The position numbers were made by a program, and so were the translations under genes. Below are positions 1,798 to 21,971 of a DNA stretch of 25,923 nt, one piece after another; positions within the stretch are counted from its first letter, which is position 1; each line of letters begins with the position of its first letter. The stretch is from a virus. The stretch is taken from the IMG/VR virus record IMGVR_UViG_3300031963_000830, positions 1 to 25,923 of that record, one strand, 5' to 3'. The notes beneath the pieces are model-generated. The model saw only the letters and a list, made by a program, of their open reading frames with translations. It was not told where the DNA came from and did not search any database.

Positions 1798-3834
1798 ATG
1801 GCAAACAAAACAATATTTCAAAGATTAAATGCCATATTTGGTCCTGAGGGTGTTAGACAACAACCTCAGCAATCAAATAGGTATTCGATTAATAATGATG
1901 TGTTAATTAAAACACAATCAAAAGAAGAGTATGATTCCGTTAAATTACAGAATCAGCAAAATAAATTTTTAAGAAATCTTTGGAGAAAAGTAGATGGTGA
2001 ATTGTTTCAACAATCAATTCATTATGAAACAACCAGAATTGGTTCTTATACCGATTTTGAAAGTATGGAATTTTACCCAGAAATTGCTGCGGCTTTAGAT
2101 GTTATGATGGAAGAAGCTACAACAACAAATGAAAAAGGTAAAATATTAAATGTATATTCTGATAGCACTAGGATTAAAGCAGTTTTAGAAGATTTGTTTT
2201 TTAACCGATTGGATATTCATGTTTCATTACCGATGTGGACGAGAAACACATGTAAGTATGGTGATAACTTTTTATTATTAAATATTGATGATAGAAACGG
2301 AGTATTAGGTGCAAGACAATTACCAAACTTTGAAATAGAAAGAAGAGAAGGTGATATTATTGATGCCATGATAAGTGGTAGGAATAGAATTAATGTTGAA
2401 GACGTAAAAGAAACGTCTGGTAAAATTAAATTTTTCTGGAGGGGTAGAGATGTTGAATTTAATTCATGGCAAATAGCACACTTTAGATTATTGGGTGATG
2501 ATAGAAGATTACCGTATGGTACATCTATGCTTGAAAAGGCTAGAAGAATTTGGAAGCAACTTCAATTATCTGAAGATGCGATGTTGGTTTATCGTATTAC
2601 TAGAGCACCAGAAAGAAGAGTTTATAAAATATTTGTCGGTAACATTGATGAGGAAGATGTGCCACAATACGTTGATGAAATCGCCAATAGATTTAAGAGA
2701 ACACCAATTGTTGACCCACAAACAGGTCAAGTTGATTTAAGATATAATACATTGGCAAATGACCAAGATTATTTTATTCCAGTTAGGGATGAGAATGCAC
2801 CAACACCAATTGATACATTACAGGGTGCATCAAATCTTGACCAAATTGCGGATATTCAATATTTGCAAAGAAAATTATTTACAGCATTAAGGGTTCCAAA
2901 ACAATTTTTAAATTATGATGAACCACAAGGTGAAGGTAAAAATTTAGCATTACAAGATGTTAGATTTTCTAGAACTATAAACAGAATCCAACAAGCGATG
3001 ATTGCTGAATTAAATAAGATTGCAATTATACATTTATACTTGTTAGGTTTTGAAGATGATGTTGATAATTTTACATTAACCTTAAACAACCCATCAACAC
3101 AAGCTGAAATACTTAAAATTGAGCAATTACAGTTGAAGATGACATTGTACAAAGATGCAGTATCTGATGCTGGTAATGGATTTGCACCAATGTCAATGAC
3201 TAGAGCCCATAGAGAGATTCTTGGTTGGAGTGATGATGATATTAAACAAGATTTACTTGAACAAAGAATTGAAAAAGCTGCATCTGCTGAATTAGAAAAT
3301 ACTAGCAACGTTATTAAGTATACTGGTATGTTTGACAAAGTTGATACTATATATGGTGACATTGATGCTGCCCGTTCTGGTGGAACTGGTGCAGAAGGTG
3401 GTGGTGATGAAGAAGGTGGTGGTCCTACTGGTGGAGGCGGCGGTGGCGGCTTCGGTGGTGGTGGTCTTGATTTCGGTACCGAAGAAGGTGGTGAAGAAGC
3501 TCCAGAAGTTGGCGGTGAAGGTGAGGCTGCTGGTGGTGAAGAAGCTGCACCAGAAGTTGGTGCTCCAGAGGCTGGTGCCGCACCAGAAACTCCAGAGGGT
3601 CTTGCTGAGACAATAAAAAGACAAAAATCTTTATTGACTGAAGCTGGTAAAAGTAAAAGACCAATAAATAAAAAAGTATCAACAAATTCATTTGATAATT
3701 TATTGAAGACAATAAAGAATGATGATGAAAATATTGTATTAAATGAGCGTGTAAAAATATACGATAAAAATTTAAAAATAAATGAAGATATAAATACAAT
3801 TATCGGTGACATAGATAGAATGTTGGACGAATAA
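1798..3834 (+). CDS. Portal vertex protein (T4 gp20-like)
   Basis: Forms the dodecameric ring at the unique capsid vertex, nucleates prohead assembly and docks the terminase. The core (about residues 60-500) has portal-type sequence: EIAAALDVMMEEA near 95, CKYGDNFLLLNID near 150-162, and the helical RKLFTALRVPKQFLNYDEP segment near 355-380. At 678 residues it is longer than T4 gp20 (about 524). The extra length is a Gly/Glu/Ala/Pro low-complexity linker (about 527-601) and a C-terminal tail of about 75 residues. The tail begins with LLTEA (612-616), which matches the prohead-protease site in the capsid protein of this phage. ATG start behind an A-rich leader; TAA stop. The long open frame on the opposite strand here is a shadow of the GGN/GAA-rich linker. 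Confidence 0.95.
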   Translation: MANKTIFQRLNAIFGPEGVRQQPQQSNRYSINNDVLIKTQSKEEYDSVKLQNQQNKFLRNLWRKVDGELFQQSIHYETTRIGSYTDFESMEFYPEIAAALDVMMEEATTTNEKGKILNVYSDSTRIKAVLEDLFFNRLDIHVSLPMWTRNTCKYGDNFLLLNIDDRNGVLGARQLPNFEIERREGDIIDAMISGRNRINVEDVKETSGKIKFFWRGRDVEFNSWQIAHFRLLGDDRRLPYGTSMLEKARRIWKQLQLSEDAMLVYRITRAPERRVYKIFVGNIDEEDVPQYVDEIANRFKRTPIVDPQTGQVDLRYNTLANDQDYFIPVRDENAPTPIDTLQGASNLDQIADIQYLQRKLFTALRVPKQFLNYDEPQGEGKNLALQDVRFSRTINRIQQAMIAELNKIAIIHLYLLGFEDDVDNFTLTLNNPSTQAEILKIEQLQLKMTLYKDAVSDAGNGFAPMSMTRAHREILGWSDDDIKQDLLEQRIEKAASAELENTSNVIKYTGMFDKVDTIYGDIDAARSGGTGAEGGGDEEGGGPTGGGGGGGFGGGGLDFGTEEGGEEAPEVGGEGEAAGGEEAAPEVGAPEAGAAPETPEGLAETIKRQKSLLTEAGKSKRPINKKVSTNSFDNLLKTIKNDDENIVLNERVKIYDKNLKINEDINTIIGDIDRMLDE

Positions 3835-3880: not shown

Positions 3881-4651
3881 ATGGATAATTTTGGTAAAAT
3901 AAAATCAACATACAACTTTATATTGGCTGAAGCTATATCAACTGGTAATGAAAATAAAAAAGCAACATTCAAACAATATATAAAAACAATAAAAGAAAAC
4001 GAAGGTTTAAATGCTCAATTTAATGTCTATTATAATATTGAAAGTAAAATTGAATCTGATAAATTTAAAGCGTTGGAATATGTTAACGAGTGTATATCAT
4101 TGCTAGATAAATTTGATAAAAAACAAATAAAAGAATCAAATAAAAAATTAGCCAATGCTATACTTAGTGAGTCTTTTGAAATTGATGATATTAGAGAATC
4201 ATTATACAATAATATTGATACATTAATATTCACCAAAAAGACACATAAAACTATTGACCAGATAGTTGAGGCTAAAACAGCCATAGTTGATTACATATTA
4301 GCAAACACTAAAAAAGAAATCGGTGAAGGGTATGGTTTACCAAATAGTACATTAGCTGAAATTGCTGTTGATAAATTTAATGAGGAATATACTGAATTAG
4401 ATGAGTCTGATGTTTCAGCAGTTAATGCTGTAATATCTACCAATGAATCTGAAAAAGAAAATTTCTACAAAGAATCAATTAAAGAGTGTTTGACTTTGGT
4501 CAATACTAAAATTTCTGAATCTTCTGGTGATATAAAAGAAAAACTATTATCAACTAAAGAAAACTTATTAAATAGAACTTACAATACAGAATCCTTTGTG
4601 TCTGATATTTCTAAAATTCTAGAATTAAAAAAACATTTAAATAATAATTAA
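3881..4651 (+). CDS. Unknown protein, candidate internal head protein with capsid-targeting-like N-terminus
   Basis: A 256-residue protein, mostly predicted alpha-helical, charged (Lys/Glu rich) and free of transmembrane segments. I do not recognise the family. Its N-terminus, MDNFGKIKSTYNFILAEA, resembles T4 internal-protein capsid-targeting sequences (from memory, of the MKTYQEFIAEA type), with a likely gp21-type cut after Glu17 in I-L-A-E-|-A. It lies just after the portal gene, where T4 has prohead-core genes 67 and 68, so a core or internal head protein is the best guess. A candidate late promoter lies 17 bp upstream. The next gene starts one base after its stop, indicating translational coupling. 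Function is inference; that it is a gene is near certain from length, leader and operon position. Confidence 0.85.
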   Translation: MDNFGKIKSTYNFILAEAISTGNENKKATFKQYIKTIKENEGLNAQFNVYYNIESKIESDKFKALEYVNECISLLDKFDKKQIKESNKKLANAILSESFEIDDIRESLYNNIDTLIFTKKTHKTIDQIVEAKTAIVDYILANTKKEIGEGYGLPNSTLAEIAVDKFNEEYTELDESDVSAVNAVISTNESEKENFYKESIKECLTLVNTKISESSGDIKEKLLSTKENLLNRTYNTESFVSDISKILELKKHLNNN

Positions 4652-4652
4652 A

Positions 4653-4955
4653 ATGGAAATGAATTCCTTGGTTCAAATTTTTGGTAGCGCTGGTGTGACT
4701 TTTTATGTCATGTGGCTTTGGCTTCAGAGTATCCAAAAGGAAAAATCTGGCATAATTAAAAAGTTGGAGATTGAACAAGAAAATAGGATAAATGAACTTA
4801 AGGAAATATTGCCTTTACTAAATGAAGCATCCAATGGTCTTCAAGCTGCCATGAAAAATCAAGAACAAAGTAATGGTGAGGTGATTAAGAGAATCATTGA
4901 ACATGTTGACAAAAAAATAGATGAGTTAAGTAAAAAATGCTCAAATAACGATTAA
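4653..4955 (+). CDS. Small one-TM coiled-coil protein, holin-like (BhlA/UviB type?)
   Basis: A 100-residue protein with a short N-terminus, one hydrophobic segment (about residues 6-25, LVQIFGSAGVTFYVMWLWLQ) and a long charged helix or coiled coil to the end (heptad-like Ile/Leu in 33-95). This layout resembles small BhlA/UviB-type phage holin-like proteins, so it may form membrane lesions or anchor something at the inner membrane. It starts one base after the previous stop. A lysis gene in a head operon would be unusual, and no endolysin gene is visible in the window. The membrane topology is clear; the holin role is a weak inference. Confidence 0.75.
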   Translation: MEMNSLVQIFGSAGVTFYVMWLWLQSIQKEKSGIIKKLEIEQENRINELKEILPLLNEASNGLQAAMKNQEQSNGEVIKRIIEHVDKKIDELSKKCSNND

Positions 4956-4972
4956 AAAAAATAAATTAAGTT

Positions 4973-5365
4973 ATGGAAAATGTGTTACAATTAACTTTTG
5001 CTAAATTAGAGCTTAAACAAATGGAGCTAATTGACAGATTATCTATGAAGCATAATGATTATGTAATAAGAGTTATTATGTCAACAGTAACTGATAAATT
5101 TGTTGCTGTTAATGGTGATTGGGAATTGGTAACTGGTTTCAAGGAAAGTTATTGTATTGATAAAACATGGGAAGATATAGCACCAAAAAATCAAATTAAA
5201 AATGTTTTAGGTTATATGGATTACCTTAAAAAGAGTCAAAACACATTTCAAAAAACTAAATTTGATATAATCAAAAAAGATGGTAAGATATTATCAGTTG
5301 ATTGGACTGGTAAATATTTCCCAGAAATAAACGGAATGGTTTTAATTGGTAGAGTAACTAGGTAA
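4973..5365 (+). CDS. PAS-domain protein
   Basis: A 130-residue protein with a short helical N-terminus (1-40) and a single PAS fold (about 41-128). PAS features: the strand and turn FVAVNGDWELVTGFKESYC (43-61), a helix with WEDIAPKNQ, a central helix GYMDYLKKSQN, and the paired strands FDIIKKDGKILSVDW and INGMVLIGRVTR, a typical PAS C-terminal half. No kinase, cyclase, HTH or other output domain is attached, so it would act by binding a ligand or partner. It lies 17 bases after the preceding gene in the same orientation. A stand-alone PAS protein between portal and prohead-protease genes is unexpected. Confidence in the fold is good; the role is unknown. Confidence 0.85.
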   Translation: MENVLQLTFAKLELKQMELIDRLSMKHNDYVIRVIMSTVTDKFVAVNGDWELVTGFKESYCIDKTWEDIAPKNQIKNVLGYMDYLKKSQNTFQKTKFDIIKKDGKILSVDWTGKYFPEINGMVLIGRVTR

Positions 5366-5369
5366 TATA

Positions 5370-5400
5370 TTGACTTTGTTATTTTTTTTAAGTATAGTTA
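5370..5400 (+). promoter_or_regulatory. Possible host-type promoter (weak)
   Basis: TTGAC (5370-5374) followed after the same 20-base TTG-to-TA spacing as the 10861 promoter by TATAGTTA (5393-5400). The second box matches only four of the six fixed positions of the Bacteroidetes TAnnTTTG element. It lies 14 bases ahead of the ATG at 5415. Confidence 0.3.
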
Positions 5401-5414
5401 ATAAAAAAAATATT

Positions 5415-5852
5415 ATGCTTAAAACAGGAAAACAAATGAAAATTGATTTATTTAAAAATTACAAAATAGTTACAGGTACTATTGATAATAAAAACCCAAA
5501 ATCAATGTATCTTACAATATCAGCATGGGGTGAACCTAAATTAAATTCTGATATTAATTATTCTGATGTTATCAGAAAAATGAATAAACAAATAAAAGCA
5601 AATTTATATTCTAAATTAGATAAATCGTTATTTGATTACGGTAGAACTATTGTTGATTTGGATATGCGTGATTCTGGAATAAATTATAACAAAAAAAGTT
5701 ACATGAATTGTGAAATAACATTATTTAAATTAAATAATTTTAAAATACAAGATAAAAGAATAAAGGAAGAGGTTAAAAAAATAATGAATGATGTTGTATC
5801 TGAAGTATTTGAAAAATCTGAATATTTTAATTTCCACAAAACTAAAAAATAA
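5415..5852 (+). CDS. Unknown protein
   Basis: A 145-residue protein of no recognised family. The frame opens with a TTG at 5370, but the ATG at 5415, behind a run of A residues as for other genes here, is the better start; the extra TTG-initiated residues would be a random-looking hydrophobic stretch. The protein is basic and mixed alpha/beta, with no signal peptide or membrane segment. A rho-independent terminator follows 22 bases after the stop, so this is the last gene of its transcription unit. Context alone suggests a head-assembly accessory. Confidence 0.7.
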   Translation: MLKTGKQMKIDLFKNYKIVTGTIDNKNPKSMYLTISAWGEPKLNSDINYSDVIRKMNKQIKANLYSKLDKSLFDYGRTIVDLDMRDSGINYNKKSYMNCEITLFKLNNFKIQDKRIKEEVKKIMNDVVSEVFEKSEYFNFHKTKK

Positions 5853-5937: not shown

Positions 5938-6828
5938 ATGTCAGATATTAAAATACTAAAAGCTGTGGATGAATTAACCACTATGATTTATTCTTTAGTT
6001 GACCCAGAAACTAATATTATTAGATATATAGGTAAAAGTGATAATTTAAATAGACGACTAAGTGAACATATTAAAAAAAGTAAGCATTCAATAACACATA
6101 AAAATAACTGGATTGTCTCATTAACGAAAAAAGGGTTATCACCTATAATTGAAGTTATTGATATTGTTCCGAGGCATGAGTGGGAATTTTGGGAGGTGTT
6201 TTGGATAGACCAATTTAAATCCTGGGGTTTTAATTTAACTAACATAAGTAATGGTGGTAATGGTGGTGACTTAGGTCCCATAGTTAGAAAAAAAATATCA
6301 GATAAATTAAAAGGTAGGGTTAATTCAGAAGAATCTAAAAAAAAACTTAGTGAATATAGATTAGGTAAAACCTATGAAGAATTGTATGGTATTGAACGAG
6401 CTCTTGAGGTTAAGAGTAAAATGTCTAATGATAGGTCTGGTTCTAATAATAATATGTATGGTAAAACACATTCTGATGTTACTAAAATGAAGATTCGTTT
6501 GAAAAATTCAGAAAATAATAAGGGTGAAAATAACCCTATGTATGGTAAAAAACATACTAAAGATACTATTGAGGTTATTAAAAATAAATTATCAGTAAAG
6601 AATAGTGGTGTGGGTAATCCGTTTTATGGTAAAACCCATACTGATGAATTTAAAAATAAATTACGTAAAAAAGTTAAGCAATTAGATTTGGATGGTAATT
6701 TGATAAAAATATGGAATTCGATAACTGAGGCTGCTAATACACTTGGATTGAATCAAAGTAGTATATCTAGTGTTTGTAATAAACCAAATAGAACTTACAA
6801 TAATTATAAATGGGAAAAAATAAATTAA
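5938..6828 (+). CDS. GIY-YIG homing endonuclease with NUMOD3 repeats and NUMOD1
   Basis: A free-standing homing endonuclease, 296 residues. The N-terminal GIY-YIG nuclease has the GIY-equivalent I17-Y18-S19, Y30-I31-G32, arginines 39-40, Glu86 in the EVFWIDQF helix, and Asn99 followed by a Gly-rich turn (NGGNGG, 105-110). Three NUMOD3-like DNA-contact repeats follow (around 170-185, 197-213 and 225-241, each with N-x-M/F-Y-G-K-x-H). A C-terminal NUMOD1-like helix-turn-helix (246-296) contains SITEAANTLGLNQSSISSVC. The gene is complete with apparently intact catalytic residues, and sits between a late-type promoter and the prohead protease gene, which begins one base after its stop. Its first residues (MSDIKI) resemble those of the protease (MSDFQI). 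No role in head assembly is expected. Confidence 0.93.
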   Translation: MSDIKILKAVDELTTMIYSLVDPETNIIRYIGKSDNLNRRLSEHIKKSKHSITHKNNWIVSLTKKGLSPIIEVIDIVPRHEWEFWEVFWIDQFKSWGFNLTNISNGGNGGDLGPIVRKKISDKLKGRVNSEESKKKLSEYRLGKTYEELYGIERALEVKSKMSNDRSGSNNNMYGKTHSDVTKMKIRLKNSENNKGENNPMYGKKHTKDTIEVIKNKLSVKNSGVGNPFYGKTHTDEFKNKLRKKVKQLDLDGNLIKIWNSITEAANTLGLNQSSISSVCNKPNRTYNNYKWEKIN

Positions 6829-6829
6829 T

Positions 6830-7531
6830 ATGAGTGATTTTCAAATAAATAAGGATAATACAGTCGGTAAGGTCATGATTATGATTGAATCTGATGCGGG
6901 TTACATATCCCCAGATGATAAAAGAAATAAACCATTCATCACTGAGATGAAAAAATTAGAATCTGGTATACACCCATCAGTTCATGAACCATTAGTTGTT
7001 TATGTGGTCTTACAAAAATATGGTGTAAAAAATAGAAATGGTAGAATATATCCAGAATCTATTTTGAAAAGAGAAGTTGATAGATATCAAGAATTAATTA
7101 GAGAAAGAAGAGCTATTGGTGAATTGGACCATCCAGAATCTTCTATTATTGCTGGTGATAGAGTGTCACATAATATTATTGAAACTTGGTGGGAAGGTAA
7201 AACCCTAATGGGTAAAATGGAAATACTTATGACCCCAGGTTATGTAAATTATGGTATTGTATCAACAAAGGGTGATGAGGTTGCTAATCTTTTAAGAAAT
7301 AATATTATGATTGGTGTATCATCTAGAGGTGTTGGTTCATTAAGAGAAGTTGGTGGTGACCATGTTGTTCAAGAAGACTTTGAAATTATTTGTTGGGATG
7401 TTGTTACAGCACCTAGTACACCAGGGTCTTGGATGTTTAAAGAAAAGTCTGAAGCAAGACCATTTGTTGAATCTGTTGAAAAGAAAAATAATATATTAGG
7501 TGAAGGTCTAGATAAATTTTTATTGGACTAA
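6830..7531 (+). CDS. Prohead core protease (T4 gp21-like)
   Basis: Serine protease that matures the prohead by cutting scaffold, capsid and internal proteins at (L/I)-x-E sites. At 233 residues it is close to T4 gp21 (212). Diagnostic motifs: NRNGRIYP (about 66-73), the catalytic histidine H101 in GELDHPE, the nucleophile in GVSSRG (S164 or S165), and the conserved WDVVTAPST segment near 190-198. ATG begins one base after the stop of the upstream homing endonuclease, so the two are probably translationally coupled. Scaffold and capsid genes follow, as in T4. Confidence 0.95.
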   Translation: MSDFQINKDNTVGKVMIMIESDAGYISPDDKRNKPFITEMKKLESGIHPSVHEPLVVYVVLQKYGVKNRNGRIYPESILKREVDRYQELIRERRAIGELDHPESSIIAGDRVSHNIIETWWEGKTLMGKMEILMTPGYVNYGIVSTKGDEVANLLRNNIMIGVSSRGVGSLREVGGDHVVQEDFEIICWDVVTAPSTPGSWMFKEKSEARPFVESVEKKNNILGEGLDKFLLD

Positions 7532-13734: not shown

Positions 13735-14511
13735 TCATTTAAACCAATCGGTATTTGAATTTATTTTTGTTAAATTAAAACTTAAATTTCTTTCATTTGG
13801 TATTGCTAAAACATTGCTACAAATAAAATCTGATTCAAATACATTTATGGGATTATTTTTATGATTATTTATTTTAAATAATCGACTTATATGCCAATAA
13901 CAATCATAATTTTCTTGCAATAAGAAATCTAGTAATGCTGGTGAATATTCTCTATTATCATTTTCAACATATAAAATTGGCCTGTGTTTTTTTATTGTGT
14001 AATATGCACCATTTAATACATTAATTTCCATTGTTTCAACATCAATTTTCATTAGATTTAATTTATCAAATGATAAATCATCCAGTCTAATTTGATTTAC
14101 GTTAATACCGTTCTTTTCTGATAATCTTATACCACCAAAATTATTTGGTTTTGTATAATCTAATATTGGAACATTTATTACTTTTTGACTATCACCAACA
14201 GCTAAGTTATATGTTTCAACATTGCGCATATTGTTTATTGCTACATTGCCACAAAGTATTCTAAATATTTCTGGTTGTGGTTCAAAAGAAATAACCTTAC
14301 CATCAAAACCAACCATTTTACTAAATGGTAATGTCATCAAGCCAATATTTGCACCTATGTCTAATACAACATCATTTTTATTTATTAGTGATGATAATAA
14401 AATTATTTCATCATCACAATATTCACCATATTCGGATATACAATTACCAATGTAATAATCATTGGAATTATAAATCACTTTACCATATTTGTATTCAGAT
14501 ATTATATTCAT
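13735..14511 (-). CDS. FkbM-family SAM-dependent methyltransferase
   Basis: A 258-residue Rossmann-fold methyltransferase. Motif I is LDIGANIG (50-57), followed by the acidic strand end ISFEPQP (74-80), LAVGD (103-107) and the FkbM signature KIDVETME (155-162, usually KIDVEGxE). The family typically O-methylates sugars or glycan precursors using S-adenosylmethionine. It is oriented leftward but separated from the tail cluster by a terminator, with its own possible promoter, so it looks like an independently expressed accessory gene at the strand switch. Together with the two glycosyltransferases further right it may decorate a glycan on virion or host surface, which is inference. ATG start; TGA stop, unlike the TAA of most neighbours. 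Confidence 0.92.
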   Translation of the reverse strand: MNIISEYKYGKVIYNSNDYYIGNCISEYGEYCDDEIILLSSLINKNDVVLDIGANIGLMTLPFSKMVGFDGKVISFEPQPEIFRILCGNVAINNMRNVETYNLAVGDSQKVINVPILDYTKPNNFGGIRLSEKNGINVNQIRLDDLSFDKLNLMKIDVETMEINVLNGAYYTIKKHRPILYVENDNREYSPALLDFLLQENYDCYWHISRLFKINNHKNNPINVFESDFICSNVLAIPNERNLSFNLTKINSNTDWFK

Positions 14512-20411: not shown

Positions 20412-20443
20412 AAAAAACGGATTTTTTTATTCAAATCCGTTTT
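20412..20443 (-). terminator. Terminator overlapping the sigma factor stop codon
   Basis: An 11-bp perfect stem: 20433-20443 pairs with 20414-20424, core AAACGGATTT/AAATCCGTTT, with an 8-nt loop. On the minus strand a short T run follows. The last sense codons of the gp55-like gene lie in the 5' arm and its TAA stop (20429-20427) lies in the loop. Confidence 0.85.
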
Positions 20444-21176
20444 CTAGCCCATCCATTTTTAAAATAGAATATATGTCTTTGTATTTTTTCATAGATGACC
20501 TTATATCTTTAGTTGATAAATTGGTATAGTTTCGCATTGTTTCTAAAACTGAATTTTTATTAAATTTAGGTCCACCATTCATAATGTCTAATGTTTTTTC
20601 CCAATTTTCTAATATATCAATTAATGCGTAACCAACCTTTATTTCATTATCATTCAACCTTTTTTTAGGTGGAAGGTTATCATTGTTATCAATTTCTACT
20701 TTTATATTATTAGTTAAATTAAATATAAATTTATCTAATGTGAAATCTTTATCTTCTATTTCATATTGTAAATCTTCCCTACCATCTAAATATGATTGAG
20801 TTAAATCTTCATATGAATATAATTGTTTTAGAGAACCATCATCCTTTATTAGTAGCCCTAAAATATAATGTTTACAAATTGTTCCATAGTAAGAATATGC
20901 TTTTTTACCAGAATCTTTATCAAACTTATCCGCTTTTGTTATCAAGAAGGAAAGAGTGTCTGAATGTAAATCTTCAAATGAGACACCCTTTCTATATAAT
21001 TTATACCTTCTGATTATCGATTCAATCATTTTATCAAATGGTTTTCTTAACCATTGATTGTAGATTGCATTCCTTTCTATTTCATCGTTACATTCTAAAA
21101 ATCTAACTACAGCTGCTTCTTCTTCTGGGCCAAAATATAAATCATTCGTTCTTTTTCGCCCCCTTTGTTTAGCCAT
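20427..21176 (-). CDS. Late-transcription sigma factor (T4 gp55-like)
   Basis: A 249-residue sigma-family protein expected to direct host RNA polymerase to phage late promoters. The conserved core is region 2-like: MIESIIRRYKLYRKGVSFEDLHSDTLSFL (50-78), KADKFDKDSGKKAYSYYGTICKHYILGLL (81-109), with the aromatic YSYYGTICKHY stretch corresponding to sigma regions 2.3-2.4. No region 4 domain is apparent, as in gp55, which leaves upstream contacts to a partner such as gp33. It is longer than T4 gp55 (185), with a charged C-terminal region. The N-terminus is very basic. It ends inside a terminator and lies between glycosyltransferase and tail genes. Confidence 0.9.
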   Translation of the reverse strand: MAKQRGRKRTNDLYFGPEEEAAVVRFLECNDEIERNAIYNQWLRKPFDKMIESIIRRYKLYRKGVSFEDLHSDTLSFLITKADKFDKDSGKKAYSYYGTICKHYILGLLIKDDGSLKQLYSYEDLTQSYLDGREDLQYEIEDKDFTLDKFIFNLTNNIKVEIDNNDNLPPKKRLNDNEIKVGYALIDILENWEKTLDIMNGGPKFNKNSVLETMRNYTNLSTKDIRSSMKKYKDIYSILKMDGLENGFE

Positions 21177-21185
21177 AATTAAATA

Positions 21186-21971
21186 TTATTCTGTATAACT
21201 TATCTCTCTATCCTGTTCGTGATAAAATTCAGATTTAGCTTTATTTAACCACCAATTGGCTTCAACTGGGTTCATGGATTCTCTGTAATTATGGAACAAT
21301 GAGCCAGTTCTTTGGTTAACATGTTTGTAACCAAATCTAGGTATTGTCATAATTCTTGCTGATTTGTAAGACATTCTCAATAAGAATTCATAAATAAATG
21401 TTAATTTAATATTTGATTTAAAACCACCATATGATTGGTATAATTCTTTTTTCATAACAATACCATCAATATTAAAGTTTTGATATGTTAATAATGCATC
21501 TTTATCTAGGTATCCTAATTCTTCTGAAAAACTATTTGCCCAAACTGCTTCGTTTGTAAAACCAATAAATGAACCATTTTCATCAACATCAACAATAATT
21601 GGCATGAAGATATCCACATCTGTGTGTGCTTCGATATATGTTTCAACTGATTTAAACCATATTTTAGAATACTCATCATCATATTCTAAGATACTGAACC
21701 ATTCAGTATCACATTTATCAACACCGAAATTCATTTGCGATGCGAAATCAGTATTACCATCGTTTTCAACAACGGTTACTAAATCTTTAATTGAATCGTA
21801 ATCATATCCTTTTGCAAAATCAAAAGCATCACTAGCTTTTGGTACTACAACCATAACTTTACCAGGTTTAACAACTTGGTCATGTATGCTTTTGATTGCA
21901 TTTGCAAATAATGGTTTTGTATTATCATTAATATCATGTAATGGAATAATTACTGTTACATTTTTACTCAT
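21186..21971 (-). CDS. GT-A type (GT2-like) glycosyltransferase
   Basis: A 261-residue glycosyltransferase. It opens with the typical nucleotide-sugar-binding strand VTVIIPLHD (5-13) and a following AIKSIHDQ helix. The mid-domain carries DFASQMNFGVD (75-85) and the acidic motif EYDDEY (96-101) in the DxD position for metal and sugar-nucleotide binding. Later GIVMKKELYQSYGGF (about 171-185) resembles the acceptor-side segment of GT2 enzymes. It transfers a sugar to an unknown acceptor: phage DNA base, virion protein or cell-surface glycan. No signal peptide or membrane segment, so cytoplasmic. It lies 11 bases behind the GT-B gene. Confidence 0.88.
   Translation of the reverse strand: MSKNVTVIIPLHDINDNTKPLFANAIKSIHDQVVKPGKVMVVVPKASDAFDFAKGYDYDSIKDLVTVVENDGNTDFASQMNFGVDKCDTEWFSILEYDDEYSKIWFKSVETYIEAHTDVDIFMPIIVDVDENGSFIGFTNEAVWANSFSEELGYLDKDALLTYQNFNIDGIVMKKELYQSYGGFKSNIKLTFIYEFLLRMSYKSARIMTIPRFGYKHVNQRTGSLFHNYRESMNPVEANWWLNKAKSEFYHEQDREISYTE

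Follow-up and report, generated by a model that had tools for sequence, protein, structure and literature searches.

In a virus record of 25,923 bases, analysed at full length and referred to below as the window, positions 4653–5365 encode two adjoining small proteins, a predicted transmembrane (TM) protein (TM-A) and a PAS-domain protein (PAS-A), which are obligately paired and mobile as a unit. We propose, with a probability of about 0.5, that they constitute a two-gene sensory module that governs a membrane lysis protein in a holin/antiholin-like manner; the lysis role itself we infer at roughly even odds. The window stems from a T4-like phage in which portal, prohead protease and gp23 capsid genes are present. 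Judged by the portal protein, its closest cultured relatives are a Microcystis phage and Flavobacterium phage immuto, at ~37–40% identity. The genes surrounding the pair are as follows.

1798–3834, plus strand: portal protein (gp20), T4-like (Pfam Portal_T4, 9.3e-77)
3881–4651, plus strand: conserved protein of 256 aa, left border of the swap site described below (tblastn, 63 of 82 loci)
4653–4955, plus strand: TM-A, the partner of the PAS protein, 100 aa (hydropathy; upstream of the PAS gene in 25 of 25 cases)
4973–5365, plus strand: PAS protein (PAS-A), 130 aa, ATG start (PAS_3 in homologs, AlphaFold2, Foldseek)
5415–5852, plus strand: conserved protein of 145 aa, right border of the swap site (the ATG-started protein aligns in 52 of 82 loci)
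5938–6828, plus strand: GIY-YIG/NUMOD homing endonuclease, outside the module and before the protease (Pfam GIY-YIG, NUMOD3)
6830–7531, plus strand: prohead protease, gp21-like (Pfam Peptidase_S77, 2.5e-24)

A preliminary description of this DNA had located the PAS gene between the portal and protease genes, which is correct, although four other ORFs lie there too, one of them the homing endonuclease. Related copies of this endonuclease are inserted at the same place, between the right-border ORF and the protease gene, in L046, L047, L097 and L100, and are missing in other relatives. The product of the left-border ORF resembles, by eye, the post-portal proteins of Flavobacterium phage immuto and Microcystis phage Mel-JY01 and is a possible candidate for a prohead-core role. 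For the right-border ORF, the ATG at 5415 is probably the correct start, not the TTG listed at 5370.

The ORF at 4973–5365 is a real, conserved gene, since homologs were found in about 25 further contigs (33–72% identity) and dN lies well under dS. In comparisons with close relatives, dN was 0.18–0.35 and dS 0.85–1.24, with variability highest at third codon positions; PAS-A is under purifying selection at a dN/dS of about 0.2–0.3. The window protein alone matches PAS_3 (PF08447) at E=2.5e-4, which is under the Pfam gathering score, and it is the homolog family that makes the PAS assignment firm, through profile matches, an AlphaFold2 model and Foldseek. Pfam searches with 23 family members returned PAS_3 for 19 (best 6.3e-7), PAS_9 for 10 and PAS for 5, and in genome searches two members exceeded the PAS_3 cut-off of 25.6 bits, scoring 27.7 and 30.3 bits. 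AlphaFold2, run on the 23-sequence alignment, produced a model with PAS topology (pLDDT 86.7, pTM 0.77); a single-sequence model (pLDDT 57.9) was set aside. The elements follow each other as E29–37, E43–48, H50–54, H58–61, H66–69, H72–87, E93–100, E106–116 and E121–129. The model thus comprises a helix, two strands, helices C–F and three strands, and contains the five-stranded antiparallel sheet characteristic of PAS domains. Foldseek returned 360 PDB matches at E≤1e-3 with this model, and the best 50 of the 360 are all PAS proteins.

PAS-A consists of an N-cap helix (residues 2–24, with a conserved AKLELKQxE) and a PAS core (residues 29–129, with a conserved VNGDW motif), and carries no output domain. 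The preliminary description is hence borne out in its reading of this ORF as a PAS-domain protein that lacks an output domain and is foreign to the T4 set; the structure prediction and Foldseek search that it had proposed as a check both gave a PAS-like fold and not a different one. With the PAS_3 family of bacterial sensor kinases and diguanylate cyclases (PF08447), PAS-A has in common the fold, the strand order, the N-cap helix and the profile match. It differs from them in having no fused output domain and a membrane protein paired in trans instead, in its divergent VNGDW and PEIN motifs, and in having no recognised cofactor residue. Searches of known phages gave no match to PAS-A. No relatives were found in GTDB bacterial contigs either, and PAS-A is therefore not a recently captured host gene from that source. 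A PAS match in Pseudomonas phage Y10 (OQ572411; L160 4857–5987) proved to be a PAS-GGDEF protein in a record flagged UNVERIFIED, possibly host sequence, and is unrelated to the module.

A sensing role for PAS-A, as considered in the preliminary description, is plausible. It is highly improbable that the protein is a LOV- or haem-type sensor of light, oxygen or redox state adjusting infection to the environment. LOV and haem sensors do belong to the PAS fold class, and the LOV domain of YtvA is among the Foldseek matches, but Trp or another residue stands where LOV domains have their reactive cysteine, the 23-sequence alignment contains no invariant His or Cys, and no cofactor-binding residue is recognisable across the family. 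As the default reading of PAS-A, such a sensor was rejected because conserved reactive residues are absent.

The term 'stand-alone' in the preliminary description holds for the single-domain protein but not for the gene, which is obligately paired with TM-A directly upstream; this partner had been overlooked, as had the swap site that also holds a recognised holin family. Two independent profile scans detected PAS-A in 26 contigs and TM-A in 24, and all 24 TM-A contigs recur in the PAS-A list. TM-A lies directly upstream of PAS-A in every one of the 25 distinct contigs with upstream sequence, at an intergenic distance of −32 to +17 bp; the contig L102 is cut at its start. In L104 the genes around the pair are unrelated ones, and homologs of portal and protease are missing from its vicinity. 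The two genes therefore travel together, and their link to head genes is positional.

TM-A shows an N-terminal TM segment at about residues 6–24, followed by a Lys/Glu-rich coiled coil. The TM call derives from hydropathy and is marginal (1.52 at residue 6). As a small protein (100 aa) with at least one TM segment by hydropathy, TM-A is holin-like in architecture and falls into no named family. Holin models matched none of 21 TM-A members in Pfam, nor did any appear among the PHROGs matches listed, and profile searches with TM-A and with TM-B, the membrane protein of a second class of pairs, gave weak coiled-coil matches only. Neither protein had a match in known phages.

The pair occupies a swap site between the conserved ORFs 3881 and 5415. 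A census of 75 distinct slots found TM-A with PAS-A in 18, a PAS protein (PAS-B) followed by the different TM coiled-coil protein TM-B in 21, TM-B with a short helical, PAS-less partner in 10, and TM-B alone in 2. Three slots hold a TM-GAF protein, three a Phage_holin_4_1-type protein and two other TM proteins, while 16 are empty with the flanking genes kept. The cassette classes are never mixed. The slots were partly fetched with PAS profiles, which biases the class proportions but not the exclusivity. All 59 occupied slots encode a predicted TM protein or a homolog of one, and direct testing placed two of the Phage_holin_4_1-type proteins above the PF05105 cut-off. PAS-B is a canonical PAS protein (PAS_3, E=1.4e-17). 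Its direct comparison with PAS-A by hhalign was not significant, and we therefore handle the two as distinct PAS families that share a site; homology between TM-A and TM-B was not significant. Six slots (L066, L067, L076, L077, L080, L082) additionally contain a glutamine synthetase gene of full length, which directly adjoins the gene for the holin, the TM-GAF protein or TM-B.

Whole-record searches of 26 records, which may be incomplete, located TM-A in 5 and TM-B in 12, always as a single copy and never together. The two records with PF05105 proteins contained neither TM-A nor TM-B in such searches, again of records that may be partial. Like a holin, TM-A takes the site of a known holin in relatives and, as far as these possibly partial records extend, is the one candidate lysis TM protein per genome.

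TM-B also occurs in numerous further phage lineages, at other genomic sites. A PAS gene adjoins about 38 of the 71 distinct TM-B sequences, and a short helical protein is encoded beside most of the remainder. Partners with and without a PAS domain have the N-terminal helix LKxLxxxLxDRD in common, which suggests that this helix may dock on TM-B, with the PAS domain as an optional, added sensor. Gene order is reversed, with TM-B preceding the PAS gene, in L149–L152 and L154, and two tandem PAS genes stand beside one TM-B gene in L125 (4998–5907) and L150 (2816–3702). A second swap site follows the tail-tube gene and holds TM-B with a PAS protein in L150–L152 and L154, and TM-GAF in L260 and L261. 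The GAF assignment of the TM-GAF proteins is below the Pfam cut-offs (0.0021 and 6e-4). In L268 (4001–4611) the TM-GAF gene is broken into two adjoining ORFs, possibly by a frameshift or an assembly error.

This distribution bears on a role in head assembly. In such a role TM-A would bring portal or prohead core to the membrane, with PAS-A as a reused scaffold or chaperone fold, in analogy to T4, where prohead assembly starts in a membrane-linked way. The position of the pair between portal and protease is in line with such a role, as the T4 core genes 67 and 68 sit between portal and protease, and in another lineage a third PAS type (PAS-C) is encoded with TM-B between the major capsid gene and the next structural gene. 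The constant presence expected of gp67- or gp68-like proteins is nevertheless contradicted by the 16 empty slots among 75, in which the flanks are retained. The pair or its analogues also follow tail-fibre genes or the tail tube and occur elsewhere, and the same scaffold job would have to fall to three unrelated PAS types plus a GAF type. We consider this role improbable, and the virion or assembly use raised in the preliminary description is weakened by the empty slots, the displaced pair in L104 and the analogous TM+PAS modules at other sites.

The membrane proteins of these modules are suggested to be lysis proteins or their regulators, because TM-GAF proteins share both swap sites with them, are located near endolysins in three phages, and because two contigs are arranged in parallel. 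In Nonlabens phage P12024S the TM-GAF relative gp12 immediately precedes gp13 and gp14, which are annotated as endolysin and holin. The order is TM-GAF, 2-TM protein, Amidase_2 endolysin in L257 and Amidase_3 endolysin, TM-GAF, 4-TM protein in L263. In L105, TM-A and the PAS gene are followed by a 2-TM gene, and in L077 a homologous 2-TM gene is downstream of a Phage_holin_4_1 gene. Three endolysin families were searched in the TM-A and TM-B records and lie mostly tens of kb away, within ~5 kb only in L220 and L238; no endolysin was seen adjoining a TM-A/PAS-A pair. Adjacency to an endolysin, a mark of holins, is accordingly absent for TM-A and found only for the TM-GAF analogues. The strongest connection to lysis thus runs through proteins whose GAF assignment is itself below cut-off. 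The endolysin is distant from the Phage_holin_4_1 gene of G017, too.

Against a lysis function speaks that no Pfam holin model matches TM-A or TM-B. It can also be argued that the swap site simply tolerates any small late cargo, given that glutamine synthetase enters the same slot; the synthetase gene is, however, placed beside the TM gene and does not replace it. Alternatively, the pair could be a membrane-tethered signalling or takeover module with no tie to lysis, TM-A anchoring PAS-A at the inner membrane and both modulating a host sensor kinase, a transporter or superinfection, by exclusion or as a decoy. PAS proteins are common in host signalling, other viral PAS matches in BFVD include histidine kinases and one GGDEF protein, and the pair behaves as mobile cargo in which PAS-A evolves faster than TM-A (dN of TM-A is about half that of PAS-A). 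From such a module one would expect neither replacement by Phage_holin_4_1 nor endolysins with TM-GAF homologs next to them, and no single copies or mutual exclusivity either. We regard it as rather unlikely, and the host-signalling decoy of the preliminary description has no specific support.

For a lysis module, the following mechanism can be envisaged. TM-A would insert into the membrane with its coiled coil facing the cytoplasm, an orientation suggested by charge distribution only, and cytoplasmic PAS-A would bind it via the conserved N-cap helix. PAS-A would serve as an antiholin-like sensor by which TM-A, as holin or holin regulator, is held or released. An intracellular cue such as redox, energy state or a small ligand, perceived at the PAS core, would change the complex, and release of TM-A would trigger lysis, so that the cue sets its timing.

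The proposed logic resembles that of T4, in which the holin T is governed by the cytoplasmic antiholin RIII and the periplasmic RI (PMC8385771), i.e. a small membrane lysis protein with a separate small regulator acting on its cytoplasmic domain. No sequence relation to these proteins was found, T4 senses superinfection in the periplasm, and the periplasmic domain of T is large (PMC8385771), whereas TM-A would have a cytoplasmic coiled coil, judged by charge distribution. In our mechanism PAS-A would act on TM-A as RIII does on T, and membership in that family is not claimed. RIII is not known to have a PAS domain. XhlA/BhlA-type proteins, which we take to be single-TM coiled-coil lysis proteins, are presumably like TM-A in size, in their one TM helix and in the coiled coil; TM-A has no Pfam match to these families. 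TeaA and ArrA of phage ICP1 are a holin and an antiholin that fit lysis timing to the environment, as proposed for TM-A and PAS-A; the likeness is by description, and the abstract of that account names no PAS or GAF domain (PMC7182436). A sensory protein over holin-like proteins, as proposed here, is also exemplified by the GAF sensor LytS controlling LrgAB, although this is a host system operating via transcription and the phage module has no kinase (PMC3507848).

That lysis timing responds to superinfection is already known from T4 and ICP1. Literature searches on PAS or GAF holins returned nothing relevant, nor did they bring up any sensor of intracellular metabolites or redox state that is coupled to a lysis protein. 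We tentatively suggest, with somewhat less confidence than in the module itself, that aquatic T4-like phages carry an undescribed class of ligand-sensing lysis timers. In these, exchangeable PAS or GAF sensors, placed in cis or in trans to small membrane proteins, would make the time of lysis depend on a signal from inside the host. If so, virus-driven death of aquatic bacteria would depend on host physiology via an identifiable sensor open to purification and mutagenesis. Sensors swapped on a constant membrane partner would provide a comparative handle on what each of them detects, and the module reading offers a function for several membrane proteins of such phages to which none is assigned at present.

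Elsewhere in the window, the structural region contains, on the minus strand, an FkbM methyltransferase (13735–14511) and a family 2 glycosyltransferase (21186–21971). A Sigma-70 region 2-like protein is encoded at 20427–21176 (E=7.7e-5, below cut-off) and is possibly a late sigma factor. Among the relatives, intein-like insertions are apparent in the portal (997 aa) and prohead protease (614 aa) ORFs of L190 and L191.
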